Made by a program: the position numbers and the translations under genes
The notes under the pieces: generated by a model
What the model saw: only the letters and a program-made list of their open reading frames with translations
Databases searched by the model: none
What the model was told of the DNA's origin: nothing
NCBI GenBank assembly: GCA_017553665.1
Contig: JAFZKM010000176.1
Coordinates: 1 to 9,917, forward strand
DNA from: Lachnospiraceae bacterium
Lineage (GTDB): Bacteria > Bacillota_A > Clostridia > Lachnospirales > Lachnospiraceae
Direction: 5' to 3'
DNA: 9,917 nt
Shown: positions 2,875 through 9,917 of the stretch, in pieces
Position numbering within the stretch: position 1 is the first letter of the stretch
Layout: the number at the start of each line of letters is the position of its first letter

Positions 2875-4323
2875 ATGTTCACCTGCGATCACAAAAAACT
2901 GAGACTGTCATTTAATAAGTTCCACAATTTTGAAAAAAACTATCTGCCGGAACACGGCGAATTCTGCCTGCTTGAACTGAAGGACGGACGCTATACCGGA
3001 GGAGAATGGTGGCCGGGCGATAATAACGGCAAAGGAAAGAAGATATCCGGCAAATTCATCCGCGGGACCGCGGATACCGTTCAGCCCGAAGAAGTCGCGA
3101 AATGGCATACGCTGGACAAGGACGATCTTACAAACTGCCTGGAGAACAGTGAGATCAACTGGATCAATATCGGCCCTGAGGGAGAAGGCGTCTGCTCGGT
3201 AGTGTTCAAGGACTTCAAGTCCACAAGAGACGGTAAATATCCGAAAGACGATCAGTACTGCCTTCTGATACTGGCAGACGGAGGACTGGGCGCCGGAAGA
3301 TGGGAAAAGTATAATACCAAATATGTAAAGGCAAAGGGGACATTTATCTACGCGCCGGCTCTCGCGCAGCACAGTATCGACCGGGTGTGGGCATGGACGC
3401 CGCTGAGCCCTGACGATACCTTTGAGCGGAAACAGGAAGAGGAAAAAGAGCTGCGGCTAGAAAGGAAGCTGAACAGGGATCCTTCGGCCGATCCGGAGAA
3501 ATTCAAATACGGAACGGATATCAAGGTTTATTACGAAAAAGCGCTTGAGAAGCTCCGCAAGGATTATCCGTGGGCAACCGTTACCCAGATGAAGAAGAGC
3601 GGGGAATGGATCATCACGCCCGTTCACGGGCAGTATGTTTTCGGCCAGGATCACGGGATGATCATGAACTACAGGCAGATCAATGAATGGAAGGACGGAA
3701 GCACAGCGGACGAGTTTATTGATTTCCTGTGTAAGTACACGGAAGAATCCGTCCGCAATTCCAATCCCGATAAGAAATTCAGTATGGGAATGGATATCGG
3801 CGTATACCTCGATCAGGCATTCGGGAATGTCAAAAAGGATTATCGCTGGGCCGACAGGGCAGCGCTCGATAAGGCCTGCCGTTACGTGATAAAAAAGGTT
3901 AAAGGGGATTGGGAATTCGTAAGAGATTACGGCGGAAAGAACGGCGAATATGTCTGCAACTGTCCTACCGCGGAAGAATTCATCAGGCATGTGGAGAATG
4001 ATTACCAGAACGCGGCGCTCCGCGCGAATCCCGTTGTGGATGTATATCAGCCTGAGTTCGGGCATGTTGATCTTCACGGATGGTATCTGGAACGGTATCA
4101 ATTCTCAAAGCTGGAGTCGGGTGACTACAAGGTTGATGTACAGGCCGGCGACCGCGTTACGGGCGGCGGAAGAGAATTCTTTATCACGCCGCATTGCTTT
4201 GAGGCAAAAACATACGATGAGTTCCTGGACCGTTATCTGGAGATAGTTCCCGGCGGGAGCTTCGGTCTTTGCAAAGAACAGCTTATTAATGACGCGAAGC
4301 TTAAGAGCTTTCTCGGGTATTGA
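2875..4323 (+). CDS. Unrecognised 482-residue protein built of internal repeats
   Basis: I do not recognise this protein. It has no signal peptide or membrane helix and should be cytoplasmic. It divides into two halves joined by a charged helical linker (about 182-201, many Glu, Lys and Arg). The first half is a pair of related units of about 70 residues (roughly 12-80 and 107-180), each with a CLLxLxDGxxxGxW core: CLLELKDGRYTGGEW at 31-45 and CLLILADGGLGAGRW at 129-143. The second half contains two clear repeats of about 85 residues (about 207-292 and 297-380). They share a start like FKYGTDIKVYYEKA/FSMGMDIGVYLDQA and an end like TADEFIDF/TAEEFIRH. A weaker third copy (about 385-460) ends in TYDEFLDRY. 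The ATG at 2875 has AAGGAG ten bases upstream and its own promoter, so it is probably a separate unit from the LytTR genes. The many Trp and Tyr residues suggest compact beta-rich modules or a binding role; no catalytic motif was seen. Confidence 0.85.
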   Translation: MFTCDHKKLRLSFNKFHNFEKNYLPEHGEFCLLELKDGRYTGGEWWPGDNNGKGKKISGKFIRGTADTVQPEEVAKWHTLDKDDLTNCLENSEINWINIGPEGEGVCSVVFKDFKSTRDGKYPKDDQYCLLILADGGLGAGRWEKYNTKYVKAKGTFIYAPALAQHSIDRVWAWTPLSPDDTFERKQEEEKELRLERKLNRDPSADPEKFKYGTDIKVYYEKALEKLRKDYPWATVTQMKKSGEWIITPVHGQYVFGQDHGMIMNYRQINEWKDGSTADEFIDFLCKYTEESVRNSNPDKKFSMGMDIGVYLDQAFGNVKKDYRWADRAALDKACRYVIKKVKGDWEFVRDYGGKNGEYVCNCPTAEEFIRHVENDYQNAALRANPVVDVYQPEFGHVDLHGWYLERYQFSKLESGDYKVDVQAGDRVTGGGREFFITPHCFEAKTYDEFLDRYLEIVPGGSFGLCKEQLINDAKLKSFLGY

Positions 4324-4345: not shown

Positions 4346-4374
4346 GGGAGTGTATGAAGGGAGAAGCTTAAAGC

Positions 4375-7300
4375 ATGAAAAAGATCGCATTGATAACCGA
4401 CGGATGGCGCAGATATGTGACTTACGCATGGGTTGTGGGCATCACGCAGAGAGCCGCGCAGCTGGGCGTGGACATATGCCTTTATACTTTCAACACCAAC
4501 GGCAATCTGAGCCATGACGAAAAGTATAACGAAGGCGAGTATTCCCTTAATGAACAGATAGATTTCAACGTTTTTGACGGAATAGTGTTCGACTGCTCGA
4601 ACACCGAGGATCCCAAGGTCATCGAAGCTACCGTGGAGAGACTGAAGGCTTCGAAGGTGCCTGTCGTGAGCATCTCTTACTATGTCGAGGGCTTTCATTA
4701 TGTCGGCAATGACAATAAAAACCTTATCCGCGCGATGGTAAGGCATATGTACGAGGAGCACGGCTGCCTGAACATGGTATTCGCCGGAGGACCGGAGCAC
4801 AATTACGAGAATATCCAGCGTTTTGAGGCTTTCTGCGAGACACTGCGGGAGATAGGTCTCCCTATTTCCGAAGAGTCATATATGTTCGGCGACTATGGTT
4901 TCGACACCGGAGTCAGATATTTCCGCGAGTGGATCGAGGCAGGGAAGCCGCTTCCCGACGTCTTTATCTGCGCGAATGACAATATTGCCGCGGGCATGTG
5001 CAAAGAGGCGCTGAGGCTGGGTTATGAAGTTCCGAAGGATTTCAGGGTCACGGGTTTTGACAATCTGGACAAGGCCGCATATTACAAGCCCCAGATCGCC
5101 AGCGTGAACCATAACCGCGGTACGCTCGGAAACCGCGCCTTTGACGTGCTGAACGCGCTGATGAACCATGAGAAGGTCGATATCTACACTTACATGCAGA
5201 GCGAGATCGTTCCGGCCGAGACCTGCGGATGTCCGAATACCGGTCTGGTGGATTACCGTGATTACGCGAAGTGGCAGATCGACTGGCGCGTGGACCTGGA
5301 CCGTCATGAGGAACACATCCTCGAGCTGGAGAAGCGCTTCGCCGAATGCCGCAATATAAGCGGACTGATCGAGAGTTTCGTGAGCTATATCAGAAATCTG
5401 GACTGCTCGGGCATATTCATCTGTGTGGACAAGGCGCTCCTCGAAGCCATGCCCGAGAGCAGATTCTCGGAGGATAAGCTCGATCATGATTCCCTGGTAG
5501 TGGCGGCGGGAGAGGACCATGGCAGGCGTCTGTATTCCGTGAGGAATTTCAAGGACGTCAAAGAATATCTCGCGTCGGCCGACAGGCCCAGGGATTACAT
5601 GTTCTTCCCGATCCATTTCCGTGATCAGAGAGTGGGAACGACCATACTTTTGGAACCCGATTTTCTGTATGACCACCCGCTGTTCTATGACGCGCATAAT
5701 ACATTCATCAACAGACTCCAGAACCTCTTTATCCGGACGCAGCTGGAAAACGCGGCCGCGAGGATGAGAGGTCTCTATAACCGCGATGTCCTGACGGGCC
5801 TGTATAACAGAATAACCTACAATGAGATGATCGTGCCGAAGTTCGCGGATTACCGCAGGGACGGCATTGTCTGCGCGATGTGCTTCTTTGACGTCGATCA
5901 TTTCAAAAAGATAAACGACAGCTACGGACATGATTTCGGCGACAAGGTACTGCTGATGATCGCCCGGGCGATAAAGACCTCCAAGCCCCGTGATTCGTAC
6001 GCGTACCGTTTCGGCGGGGATGAGTTCGTGGTATTTATCCCTTATGCTACGGAGGAGAAGGTAAACAGGTTCATTTCTCGCGTTCAGGACACTTTGACCT
6101 CGAGGAATATTGAGGTGAGCAGCGGAGTTATCTATACGGATCCCGATTCAGACCGCACGTCCGACGATTATCTCGTAATGGCCGACAAGCATATGTACGA
6201 GGTCAAGCGCGCGCGTAAGAGCGAGATGGGCGAAAAACCCGATGTGGACAGACCGATAAAGGGAATCGGGTTCTTTAAGGGAGCCGATATATCGAGCATA
6301 CCCGAGAAAGAGGAAAAGGGCCTCGTCTTCAAGGATATGGACGGGACCGTGAAAGACCCGCTGGAGCTCCTCGACGAGTACGGCCTGAATTCCGTGCGCC
6401 TGCGCATCTGGAACGATCCGTCGAAGGTACCGGAAGCGGGCGGCTACTGCGATCTTAAGCATACGGTCGCTATGGCCCGCAGGATAAAGGAGCGCAATAT
6501 GCACTTCCTCCTGGACTTCCATTATTCCGACTACTGGGCGGATCCGGGGCAGCAGAAAAAGCCCGCCGCGTGGGAAGGACTGGATTTTGACGATCTGACG
6601 CAGGCCGTTTATGACTATACGCATGATGTTCTGGTCGAGCTGTCAAAGAACGATGCCCTGCCCGATATGGTGCAGATAGGCAATGAAGTCAGGAGCGGCA
6701 TACTCTTCCCCGACGGCGCCGTTCCGAATTACCGTTCGCTCGCGAAACTGATCAATGCCGGTATCCGCGCCGTGCGCGATATATCGGAGAACATCGAGGT
6801 AATGATACACCTCGACCAGGGCGGACGCTTCTTCTACCTGCGTGAGTGGTTTGACGCGATGTTCGCGGCCGGCATGGATAAGATCGATGCCATCGGCATT
6901 TCGTTCTATTCCTTCTGGCACGGCACCTTTAAGGATCTTAAGGATTCCATGGCGCAGCTCATTGACAGATACGATCTGCCGGTATACGTGGTGGAGACAG
7001 CGCATCCCTGGAGGCACTGCGAGCTCGAGCATGTCAACAGCGATATGATGAAGATGGCGGGCTTCCCCGCGGGACCCGAGGGACAGCGGAAGGCCCTGCA
7101 GCTGATCATGCAGATCGCGGCTGAGGTTTCGGGCGACCGCAAGACCGGAGTATACTACTGGGAGCCGCTTTGCATCACCGACCATGACCTGGGCACCTGG
7201 GATGAGAATATGGGCATGATGGACACCGAAGGCAGGCTGCTTCCTTCATTCGCGGTATTTAAGGACTTTGATCCCGCGAACCCGGCCATTCCGGATGTTG

Positions 7301-7776
7301 ATAAGTATATTGCTTCTCTTTACGAGAAAAAGACCGAGGAGCTTCCGCCCGCCGGGACGAATCTGATACCGAACGGCGATTATACCGACATCACTTCGGG
7401 CTGGTGGATCACGAAGGAGCCCGCGGATGTGAAGGTTACGCTCGAGAACGGGGAGCTGGTACTGTCCAGTCTTTCGAATTTCTCGCTGGAGGTATGCCGC
7501 GACGTCCGGATAGAAAAGCCCGGCAAGTACCGTCTTTCGGTGGATTACCGCGGCACGAACACGACAGGCGTAAAGGTACAGCTCTTCCTGAAGCGGATCA
7601 CCTGCGACGGGGAGGTGTCCGGCACGAAGAACATTTATCCTTCGGATATAGATTTTGAGACGACTTCGCTCGTTCTGGACATTCCCGAAGCAGTGAACAC
7701 GAGAGTGGGAATCAAGATAGACGCTCCGCCCGTATCGGGAAGGATCAGGAATTTCAGGCTTGTGGAGATCCAATGA
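4375..7776 (+). CDS. LacI-type sensor / diguanylate cyclase / GH53 galactanase fusion
   Basis: The 1133-residue protein is one uninterrupted frame with no signal peptide or membrane helix. Residues 1-285 form a LacI/GalR-type sugar-binding domain lacking the helix-turn-helix (DVFICANDNIAAG at 195-207, RVTGFDN at 224-230), ending in a CGCP motif (284-287). Residues about 330-455 look GAF-like. Residues 465-615 are a GGDEF domain: DVLTGLYNR (471-479), FFDVDHFKKINDSYGH (504-519), GGDEF (547-551). It should make cyclic-di-GMP from two GTP; the usual RxxD inhibitory site is absent. Residues about 632-965 are a complete family 53 endo-beta-1,4-galactanase: DFHYSDYWADPGQQ (714-727), acid/base Glu771 in QIGNE, SFYSFWHG (843-850), nucleophile Glu874 in VVETAHPW, YYWEP (927-931). 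Residues 995-1133 resemble a carbohydrate-binding jelly roll (NLIPNGDY). Sensor-GGDEF proteins without the hydrolase occur in clostridia; joining GH53 is unusual. It probably reads and trims imported galacto-oligosaccharides, which is inference. Catalytic labels come from family knowledge. Confidence 0.92.
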   Translation: MKKIALITDGWRRYVTYAWVVGITQRAAQLGVDICLYTFNTNGNLSHDEKYNEGEYSLNEQIDFNVFDGIVFDCSNTEDPKVIEATVERLKASKVPVVSISYYVEGFHYVGNDNKNLIRAMVRHMYEEHGCLNMVFAGGPEHNYENIQRFEAFCETLREIGLPISEESYMFGDYGFDTGVRYFREWIEAGKPLPDVFICANDNIAAGMCKEALRLGYEVPKDFRVTGFDNLDKAAYYKPQIASVNHNRGTLGNRAFDVLNALMNHEKVDIYTYMQSEIVPAETCGCPNTGLVDYRDYAKWQIDWRVDLDRHEEHILELEKRFAECRNISGLIESFVSYIRNLDCSGIFICVDKALLEAMPESRFSEDKLDHDSLVVAAGEDHGRRLYSVRNFKDVKEYLASADRPRDYMFFPIHFRDQRVGTTILLEPDFLYDHPLFYDAHNTFINRLQNLFIRTQLENAAARMRGLYNRDVLTGLYNRITYNEMIVPKFADYRRDGIVCAMCFFDVDHFKKINDSYGHDFGDKVLLMIARAIKTSKPRDSYAYRFGGDEFVVFIPYATEEKVNRFISRVQDTLTSRNIEVSSGVIYTDPDSDRTSDDYLVMADKHMYEVKRARKSEMGEKPDVDRPIKGIGFFKGADISSIPEKEEKGLVFKDMDGTVKDPLELLDEYGLNSVRLRIWNDPSKVPEAGGYCDLKHTVAMARRIKERNMHFLLDFHYSDYWADPGQQKKPAAWEGLDFDDLTQAVYDYTHDVLVELSKNDALPDMVQIGNEVRSGILFPDGAVPNYRSLAKLINAGIRAVRDISENIEVMIHLDQGGRFFYLREWFDAMFAAGMDKIDAIGISFYSFWHGTFKDLKDSMAQLIDRYDLPVYVVETAHPWRHCELEHVNSDMMKMAGFPAGPEGQRKALQLIMQIAAEVSGDRKTGVYYWEPLCITDHDLGTWDENMGMMDTEGRLLPSFAVFKDFDPANPAIPDVDKYIASLYEKKTEELPPAGTNLIPNGDYTDITSGWWITKEPADVKVTLENGELVLSSLSNFSLEVCRDVRIEKPGKYRLSVDYRGTNTTGVKVQLFLKRITCDGEVSGTKNIYPSDIDFETTSLVLDIPEAVNTRVGIKIDAPPVSGRIRNFRLVEIQ

Positions 7777-7988: not shown

Positions 7989-9917
7989 ATGGAAAACAAA
8001 AGAAAGGTTTTTGCGGGCTGCCGGGGAGGCATGCTCGTATTGGTTGTTTTGCTGTGCGTCGCGGTAATTGCCGGATGCCGCAAAAACACCGGAGACGGCA
8101 ATAACGGACAGGACGTGATCACAGAGGCGACGGCGACGCCGCAGCCTACTGCGACGCCTACACCCACGCCGATGCCTACGCCTACGCCGATACCTTTCGT
8201 GCAGCAGGCTTATGAGACACATGGAAGGGATGACGTATACCTGATCCCGATAGAGCAGGCGGGTGAGAATCAGGCGAGGATAGCCACGATCTGCGCCGGA
8301 GAATATGTACTCAACTGGTATTCAGTGTGGGGAGAGGAAGAAGACGCGCAGGCATCGAACGTTCTGATCCTCATGAGCCCGGGGATAAATACGGATCAAT
8401 ACAAAGCTTTGCCCGATTATTCGTTCAATCAGCCTTCCGTGCTCCGGGACGGAACGGTCATCCTTACGGAATATGAAAACGGGATGGTCCATGTACTGGA
8501 CAGCACCCTGACGGAGATCTGTTCATTCATTCCCGGCGGGGAAGGGGAAAATATACCGAGTACGGTCGGAGTGACCGATGACGGAACGATCTGGACCACC
8601 TGCGAGGGCAGCGCGAAGCTTTGCGCCTATGATCTTACGGGTGAGTTCAAAGCTGAGTATGACTACGACGATCTGCTTCTCGTGACCATGTATCTGGGCC
8701 GGCAGGACGGCAGGGAGTGCTTTTACACGAGCACCACGGGTGAAGTGTATCGCAACGGATACATGTATCTTTCCGCGGAGACGGGCGAGACCGAATACAG
8801 GGAGCGGAAAGAGACGGATCTGGGAGATGACTGGGACAGAAGCTCCTCGCTGCCGACGGGCGGATGGATCATGAACTGGTCAGAGTCGACATGGTTCCTT
8901 CATAAGCCGGGTTACGGTCTCGAAGGCATTACATTCCCGATGACCGACCGGGATGAAGGCATGAACTTCCTGGACGGAAACATTCTGTGCAGCTGCGCGG
9001 GCCATTGGATCAACGGCGTTGATGAGGGCAGGGATTACAGGATTTATGACCTCGAAAAGAGGACTGTATCCGGAATGCTCAAGGAGTCGGATATCCCGGA
9101 CTGCAGCTTTCTTTCGGCACAGGGAATGATCGGAGACGATTATGTCCTGATGCTCGCGCTGCATGAGGAGGAAGGGGAAGACCTGCTCTTATGGGCACCC
9201 GGAAAGGAGCGCGCTCCGATCGGCGGATTCTGCGATTTCGCGAAGGACGATCCGGATGAATACATTGCGGAGCGCCTCGAAATACTTAAGAATGAATACG
9301 GGATCGAGGTCACTCCCGACGCGCCTTCGGAAGAAAACGATACTCTCGGCGAAAAGATGGCAGAGATCGAGTATATCAATACTTTGATCCTTGCCGCTGA
9401 GGATGATCCCGATCTGTTCAGGACGGCGTCAGGTGAACCGGCCCGTCCAGAGAACATGCGCAGCAATGACGGAGCGCATTACGAATTCAACCCGCATGTT
9501 TTTTCAAAGTACTATCTGATGGAGCACGGTGAAGAGAGACGCGACACTTTCTACAGATATGTCGACGCGCTCAGGGCCGGCGAGGACAGTTTTGAATGCC
9601 CGAATATCGGCGCGGCGAGCTGGTCAAGCGGAAGGCTTGCGACATATTTCTTCCCTGTCGGGGCGGTATACTGCTACGCGGAATACGACGGGAACGGCAG
9701 GGCAAATATCACCTACAGCATCCCCAAGGAGGAGTTCCTCGAAAAAGAGCGTGAATTCGAAAAGATGGTCAAGGATATCGTCAATGATGTCGTGGAGGAT
9801 GATTATACCGACCTTGAGAAGGCATTGGCGCTGTATGAGTTCATGACCGAGTACTGCGTTTACGATTATGATATGCTGTACAATATCACCGATTGGATGG
9901 ACAGGCAGTCCGGCTAC
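7989..9917 (+). CDS. Lipoprotein with propeller-like and transglutaminase-like regions (partial)
   Basis: The frame is open from ATG 7989 to the window edge (643 codons, no stop), so the C-terminus is missing. AAGGGAG lies ten bases before the start. Residues 1-29 are a lipoprotein signal peptide (MENKRK, then a hydrophobic stretch) with lipobox IAGC, so Cys30 should be lipidated and anchor the protein outside the membrane. Residues 45-69 are a Thr-Pro-rich spacer (TATPTPTPMPTPTP), as in many cell-surface proteins of Lachnospiraceae. Residues about 70-430 contain repeated strand-turn patterns such as GTVILTEYENGMVHVLD and GTIWTTCEG, resembling a beta-propeller, though no blade count is claimed. 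The end, about 604-643 (LEKALALYEFMTEYCVYDYD), matches the helix that opens transglutaminase-like domains. The Cys-His-Asp residues would lie beyond the window. Cell-wall or surface-protein processing is possible but unproven. Transcription is probably separate from the upstream gene. Confidence 0.85.
   Translation, partial: MENKRKVFAGCRGGMLVLVVLLCVAVIAGCRKNTGDGNNGQDVITEATATPQPTATPTPTPMPTPTPIPFVQQAYETHGRDDVYLIPIEQAGENQARIATICAGEYVLNWYSVWGEEEDAQASNVLILMSPGINTDQYKALPDYSFNQPSVLRDGTVILTEYENGMVHVLDSTLTEICSFIPGGEGENIPSTVGVTDDGTIWTTCEGSAKLCAYDLTGEFKAEYDYDDLLLVTMYLGRQDGRECFYTSTTGEVYRNGYMYLSAETGETEYRERKETDLGDDWDRSSSLPTGGWIMNWSESTWFLHKPGYGLEGITFPMTDRDEGMNFLDGNILCSCAGHWINGVDEGRDYRIYDLEKRTVSGMLKESDIPDCSFLSAQGMIGDDYVLMLALHEEEGEDLLLWAPGKERAPIGGFCDFAKDDPDEYIAERLEILKNEYGIEVTPDAPSEENDTLGEKMAEIEYINTLILAAEDDPDLFRTASGEPARPENMRSNDGAHYEFNPHVFSKYYLMEHGEERRDTFYRYVDALRAGEDSFECPNIGAASWSSGRLATYFFPVGAVYCYAEYDGNGRANITYSIPKEEFLEKEREFEKMVKDIVNDVVEDDYTDLEKALALYEFMTEYCVYDYDMLYNITDWMDRQSGY

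Follow-up and report, generated by a model that had tools for sequence, protein, structure and literature searches.

A LacI-type sensor, a diguanylate cyclase and a GH53 galactanase in one Lachnospiraceae protein: a tentative link between galactan breakdown and cyclic-di-GMP

The window analyzed here, a stretch of 9,917 nucleotides from a Lachnospiraceae bacterium (assembly GCA_017553665.1, contig JAFZKM010000176.1), contains a gene (4375-7776; all window coordinates are on the forward strand) whose product joins a likely LacI-type sugar sensor, a GGDEF diguanylate cyclase and a complete GH53 endo-β-1,4-galactanase in a single chain. The fusion is real, diverged and patchy in its distribution. 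We tentatively read it as a diguanylate cyclase that works in the cytosol under sugar control and has its ligand-processing enzyme on the same chain, with cyclic dimeric GMP (c-di-GMP) reporting galactan breakdown; we infer the coupling, and regard this reading as a plausible one that stops short of probable. To our knowledge, little is established about how bacteria of the gut and rumen link the breakdown of fibre to the choice between attaching and moving, and diguanylate cyclases with known ligands are few. A hydrolase attached to the cyclase points to testable candidate ligands.

Domain architecture of the fusion protein

The gene is a single open reading frame (ORF) of 1133 codons with an ATG start and no internal stops, in which a LacI-type periplasmic-binding-protein-like sensor, a middle domain, GGDEF, GH53 and a β-sandwich follow one another, as assigned from the ORF, Pfam matches and an AlphaFold2 model (mean predicted local distance difference test score, pLDDT, 86.6; predicted template modelling score 0.68). 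A fold search with this model covered residues 1-286 and 631-965 well, and a second model of residues 1-470 alone had a pLDDT of 81.3. The N-terminal sensor (residues 1-275; 4375-5199) has the Peripla_BP fold of the LacI/GalR family and matched Peripla_BP_3 at residues 128-272 (E 3.9e-19). The LacI helix-turn-helix (HTH, PF00356) was not among the Pfam results for the protein, whose modelled chain starts straight at the binding domain's first strand. The following region (residues 276-465; 5200-5769) had no Pfam match and consists, according to the modelled secondary structure, of a mixed α/β domain (about 276-436) and most of a long helix (437-468) that runs into the GGDEF domain.

The cyclase domain (residues 466-620; 5770-6234) was identified by Pfam GGDEF at residues 469-615 (E 1.4e-30, 106.7 bits) and by NCBIfam TIGR00254 (112.8 bits against a cut-off of 37.4), and its RFGGDEF motif lies at 6007-6027. 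A linker (residues 612-633; 6208-6273) leads into the GH53 domain (residues 631-965; 6265-7269), which has the barrel fold and is complete, since the Glyco_hydro_53 match at residues 635-962 (E 8.2e-102) covers profile positions 2-340 of 340. Alignment placed the predicted acid/base E771 in QIGNE (6685-6687) and the predicted nucleophile E874 in VVETAHPW (6994-6996); E874 aligns with the ET-motif glutamate of three solved GH53 enzymes. By score and motif the cyclase looks intact, and by profile, fold and glutamates so does the endo-β-1,4-galactanase, with both activities predicted. The C-terminal β-sandwich (residues 986-1133; 7330-7773) is modelled with ten strands at 1011-1131 and can be called CBM4/9-like through a homologous tail in protein P0019, which scored marginally over the CBM_4_9 cut-off (26.5 against 25.9 bits); the tail of the window protein itself had no Pfam match at E<=0.01.

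An earlier note on this DNA had described a LacI-type domain, GGDEF and complete GH53 in one unbroken 1133-codon frame with their hallmark residues, and the ORF, the Pfam matches and an alignment of 63 proteins confirm that observation. Its account of the domains, their order and their intactness also stands, except that it left the middle domain and the helix that follows it unnamed and that the carbohydrate-binding-like tail is weaker than it had claimed.

Conservation of the active sites and cellular location

Motif counts cover the 63 proteins that reach 1000 residues; domain identity, product-inhibition site and hydropathy were assessed in the 62 that reach 1080. The GGDEF motif (RFGGDEF, 545-551) was intact in 63/63 proteins, as were D506, D508, N514 and D515. 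In GH53, E874 was kept in all 63 and E771 in 62/62, one further row being gapped at this position. Both enzymes thus look alive as judged by motif. Mean identity to the window protein across 61 proteins was highest for GH53 (71.7%; 87 of its 335 columns are invariant), followed by the LacI-type domain (66.5%), GGDEF (65.6%), the middle domain (56.5%) and the tail (53.7%). The canonical RxxD product-inhibition I-site, common in cyclases and not obligatory, was found in 0/62 fusions. The GGDEF-GH53 linker varied from 9 to 65 residues across the 62 fusions, and residues 621-630 include no invariant column.

No signal peptide was evident by eye in the window protein and no membrane segment by hydropathy, the highest 19-residue value being 1.6 across the 62 fusions. 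Because of this low maximum, and because nothing precedes the binding domain's first strand, we expect the entire protein to be cytosolic, a location that the cyclase's use of GTP also demands. Extracellular action of the fusion was rejected on the same signal peptide and hydropathy grounds.

Reality and distribution of the fusion

Searching 5.8 billion proteins, we found GGDEF and GH53 together in 69 of the best 120 of 292 matches, at 47-92% identity; the source name reads Lachnospiraceae for eight of the 69. One of these fusions, cluster P0064, represents 25,058 member sequences. P0070 (719 residues, representing 356 sequences), a version similar to it, diverges and stops early within GH53, and is either a truncated gene or a sequencing error. 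A genome scan gave 15 loci, 14 of which hold the fusion, whole or cut by a contig end; the titles of these 14 name Lachnospiraceae in 12 cases and Clostridia in two, with a rumen sample named in five. Two pairs of loci (L009 with L013, L006 with L014) each come from one assembly.

The earlier note had looked to an assembly join near 6226-6270, or to absence from close relatives, as grounds for doubting the fusion. Neither was found: the same domain order recurs in many independent assemblies, and an assembly artefact or chance join is therefore rejected. Within one family the fusion was present in 4 of 299 genomes, the centre genome included and two of the four cut by a contig end, in a survey that scored at most two candidates per genome among the matches listed; within one genus it was present in 2 of 4 genomes, again including the centre. 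Among 4431 matching plasmid records none had 80% of the query in one place, and viral contigs searched with P0064 gave no matching stretch.

Free galactanases, their neighbourhoods and c-di-GMP partners

The closest free GH53s (L064-L066; 561-573 amino acids, 53-55% identity) likewise have no signal peptide by eye and end in tails related to that of the window protein; a related tail also occurs in the free GH53s L034-L036. Pfam placed a GH42 β-galactosidase, two LacI-HTH regulators, an ATP-binding cassette (ABC) permease and a DUF3502 protein, which we take to be the binding protein, beside the GH53 of L064 (five neighbours tested), and GH42 and GH35 beside that of L065 (two tested). These two neighbourhoods look like putative operons for the use of galactan oligosaccharides; the neighbours of L066 resemble them as judged from N-termini and lengths alone. 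A lipoprotein-type GH53 was present in three of five fusion genomes, a fourth having a second GH53 that is cut N-terminally and the fifth only the fusion. In genome G081 (L059), a LacI-type ORF (41% identity to that of the window protein) and a GGDEF ORF (27%) occupy neighbouring frames directly upstream of a lipoprotein GH53 gene, so that the LacI-GGDEF and GH53 halves are adjacent and unfused; the split between the LacI and GGDEF frames may be genuine or may stem from a sequencing error. A candidate LacI-GH53 fusion frame of 1407 codons in G081 was rejected, as stops separate what are neighbouring genes.

All six fusion genomes searched encode PilZ (1-3 each) and EAL (6-19 each) proteins; therefore, the messenger can be read and cleared. 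A search of six genomes for the c-di-GMP-I riboswitch was empty, as were its controls, and has no bearing on the question.

Repeated capture of glycoside hydrolases by the same core

Reading the long frames of related genomes revealed a 1435-residue LacI-GGDEF-GH3 protein (L057). A search with its N-terminal part, restricted to proteins of similar length (best 120 of 215 matches), gave at least four GH3 fusions (the query's cluster included), at least seven GH16 fusions and at least three LacI-GGDEF-EAL proteins, with a fourth, P0140, adding PAS. A further search (best 120 of 464) added at least 17 GH16 fusions; as the best 120 matches were examined in all three protein searches, these fusion counts are lower bounds. 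GH3 is attached C-terminally, like GH53, and GH16 N-terminally; the GH16 fusions have no signal peptide by eye. A separate LacI-GGDEF-EAL protein of 1266 amino acids (L058, 2871-6671, reverse strand) has a degenerate-looking GGDEF motif and ends in 387 repetitive-looking residues with no Pfam match. LacI-type domains joined to histidine kinases (P0151, P0155 and P0180) were also among the matches listed in the first of these searches.

A 73-row tree of the core that these proteins share (including 25 of the 62 GH53 fusions of at least 1080 residues, 20 of the 51 listed unfused proteins and 11 of the 24 GH16 fusions) placed the GH16 fusions in one clade and the GH3 fusions in another, both distant from the GH53 fusions, which formed one clade except for nested P0071, a protein without GH53. 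Several of the deep branches are long, and by the tool's own warning the GH16 rows may be joined falsely to an EAL row. From the three separate clades and the nested position of P0071, we conclude that the sensor-cyclase core captured a glycoside hydrolase at least three separate times, and that P0071 is probably a secondary loss of GH53.

The captured enzymes have fared differently. The SDA and E..DR motifs, presumed to hold the GH3 catalytic residues, are present in 4/4 GH3 fusions; the usual GH3 form of the first motif is SDW. For GH16 we take ExDxxE as the catalytic motif. Its glutamate pair is present in 1/24 fusions (P0128), compared with 99/99 non-fused GH16s among the matches listed, and the replacements vary (S..S, R..D, Q..S), with one glutamate left in four. 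Because the pair survives in only this one protein, GH16 has probably turned from a hydrolase into a binding part. P0128 branches near the base of the GH16 fusions, grouped with P0129 in a second core tree (built without 7 of 24 rows, whose start pattern was not found; bootstrap 91; Shimodaira-Hasegawa-like approximate likelihood ratio test 82), a grouping that does not resolve in the GH16-domain tree (with 10 of the 99 non-fused GH16s). This fits the capture of a live GH16 followed by loss of catalysis, with two or more losses should P0129 and P0128 belong together. The rule invoked in the earlier note, that cyclases usually have non-catalytic sensors, applies less cleanly here, given the mostly dead hydrolase of the GH16 fusions. 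With GH53 intact and GH16 mostly dead, the shared core offers a ready-made natural experiment.

A possible mechanism and its alternatives

In Bacillus subtilis, galactobiose released from galactan is the signal to which the LacI-type repressor GanR responds, and the formation of pellicle biofilm is promoted by galactan (PMC5472308). The GanR/GanB system resembles the window protein in pairing a LacI-type regulator with galactan breakdown, and differs in using separate proteins and DNA binding, whereas the fusion has no HTH, a single chain and a cyclase output. One chain that combines a reader like GanR, a cutter like GanB and an enzyme making c-di-GMP suggests that galactan flux may feed into c-di-GMP. 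On the reading that we tentatively prefer, a secreted GH53 would cut galactan outside the cell, and the galacto-oligosaccharides, once imported, would be shortened by the tethered GH53. The LacI-type domain would bind a short product, galactobiose being our best guess, and this binding would act on the paired GGDEF domains of a dimer by way of the middle domain and the helix at 437-468, altering c-di-GMP synthesis. The messenger could then inform PilZ proteins and further receptors of galactan flux, for instance when the cell settles whether to remain on plant fibre or to leave it. Whether the sugar would raise or lower c-di-GMP cannot be told from the sequence. The range of linker lengths speaks against rigid coupling and suggests that hydrolase and sensor would instead be coupled through local ligand supply.

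We count in favor of this mechanism the intact GGDEF and GH53 residues, the strong conservation of GH53, the free GH53s without a signal peptide, the neighbors at L064 and L065, the lipoprotein GH53s, the G081 arrangement, PilZ and EAL, the three hydrolase recruitments, the GanR precedent and the linker. The earlier note's proposal of signalling tied to galactan turnover is partly supported: all full fusions examined retain both GH53 glutamates, and the signal-peptide-free relatives, the two galactan-use-like neighborhoods and G081 agree with it, making this link the most sensible reading.

Several observations weigh against it. The fusion is rare in both the family and the genus surveyed, and GH53 can be lost, as in P0071. 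Around the fusion genes no galactan locus was seen, the neighbors varying among loci and few of them being Pfam-tested. R149, N201 and D229, assumed from LacI to be ligand pocket residues, are also kept in 51, 50 and 51 of the 51 unfused LacI-GGDEF proteins (P0071-P0121); 17 other positions differ between these and the GH53 fusions. The ligand therefore need not be tied to GH53, and the LacI ligand may be older than the fusion. These unfused proteins match the window protein at 39-48% identity across the LacI-type, middle and GGDEF domains and, unlike it, carry no hydrolase.

Two alternatives, both of which we consider unlikely and to a similar degree, share much of this evidence. In the first, the intact galacto-oligosaccharide would be the LacI ligand and GH53 would destroy it, ending the signal. 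The anatomy would be identical, with an intact GH53, and a tethered enzyme would yield a timer-like pulse. Nothing in the sequence tells ligand clearing from ligand making; however, in the GanR case the effector is a product of galactan hydrolysis (PMC5472308), and we favor a GH53 that would make the LacI ligand because of this precedent only. In the second, the chain would merely ensure that a galactanase and a cyclase under sugar control occur in matching amounts and at the same place. The variable linker without conserved columns fits such an arrangement, as does the occurrence of GH53 with a related tail as a free enzyme, but fusions of this kind arose at least three times, with three hydrolase families and at both ends of the core, and co-localization of enzymes leaves unexplained why GH16 stayed attached after losing its catalytic residues. 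Least probable is that GH53 itself acts as a glycan sensor, substrate in its cleft altering the cyclase, or as a controlled output whose hydrolysis follows the LacI/GGDEF state: the GH16 fusions keep their fold with the catalytic pair lost in 23/24, as expected of a binding sensor, but the GH53 glutamates are intact (62/62 and 63/63), the GH3 motifs are present in 4/4 and linker length varies. Catalytic mutants could tell ligand making, ligand clearing and mere co-localization apart.

A broader proposal, which we put forward as doubtful and still worth stating, is that a LacI sensor cyclase has repeatedly captured GH53, GH3 and GH16, forming a class of second-messenger enzymes with their own ligand-processing hydrolases, in which c-di-GMP would read the flux of glycan breakdown and not sugar concentration, and whose GH16 line would since have given up catalysis to serve as a second glycan sensor. 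In a trigger enzyme, an enzyme that also signals, the catalytic state controls signal output. If real, the class would offer a visible route from metabolic enzyme to signalling pseudoenzyme.

Comparison with known proteins

The window protein is a variant of the sensor-controlled diguanylate cyclase, with added interest from the independent GH3 and GH16 fusions and the catalytic loss in GH16. Like cyclases of the PleD/WspR/DosC type with soluble sensors, it has an intact RxGGDEF, D506/D508/N514/D515 and a TIGR00254 match; unlike them, it has a LacI-type sensor before and a complete glycoside hydrolase after GGDEF, and the fusions lack the RxxD I-site in 62/62. From the GH53 galactanases of Bacillus licheniformis (2gft/1ur0), Ignisphaera (7osk) and Bacteroides (6gp5) it differs in being fused to a cyclase and having no signal peptide by eye, and from 1r8l in the shorter stretch following the YYWEP strand. 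The LacI-GGDEF-GH3 and GH16-LacI-GGDEF proteins share the core and the possession of a glycoside hydrolase, and differ in hydrolase family and in their branches of the core tree. No recognized description of such a fusion was found in the open-access full-text literature, judged mostly by title and the start of the abstract, with most subscription papers and bioRxiv preprints outside its scope. The fusion is unnoticed rather than unseen, because its proteins are already in databases under automatically assigned domain labels. Two candidate prior reports were rejected: PMC5457731 concerns a HAMP-GGDEF protein called GH53 by an automatic tool, a different architecture, and PMC6912079 has a single passing mention of GGDEF.

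Other features of the window and related loci

A possible ribosome-binding site, AAGGGAG (4357-4363), was read off the sequence 11 bases upstream of the ATG. Just upstream of the fusion lies a gene for a 482-residue protein (2875-4323) with no Pfam or NCBIfam match, homologues of which (54-63% identity) occur near the fusion in four of the 14 loci L001-L014 (L001, L009, L010 and L012), immediately upstream in L009. A second diguanylate cyclase gene, with a PAS or TPR sensor, stands beside the fusion or one gene away in 3/14 loci (L002, 621-2081; L003, 5702-7225; L012, 1668-3308). Further upstream in the window, 1887-2809 encodes a LytTR regulator and then a DUF3021 membrane protein, adjoining an ABC-2 transporter; downstream of the fusion in L008 (6569-7443), a LytTR-like ORF is found with a similar-sized neighbor and a homologue of the ABC ATPase. 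The last ORF of the window (7989-9917) is lipoprotein-like, with a proline/threonine-rich linker, and runs off the window end; it had no Pfam or NCBIfam match, and a homologue (58% identity) is present in L013.

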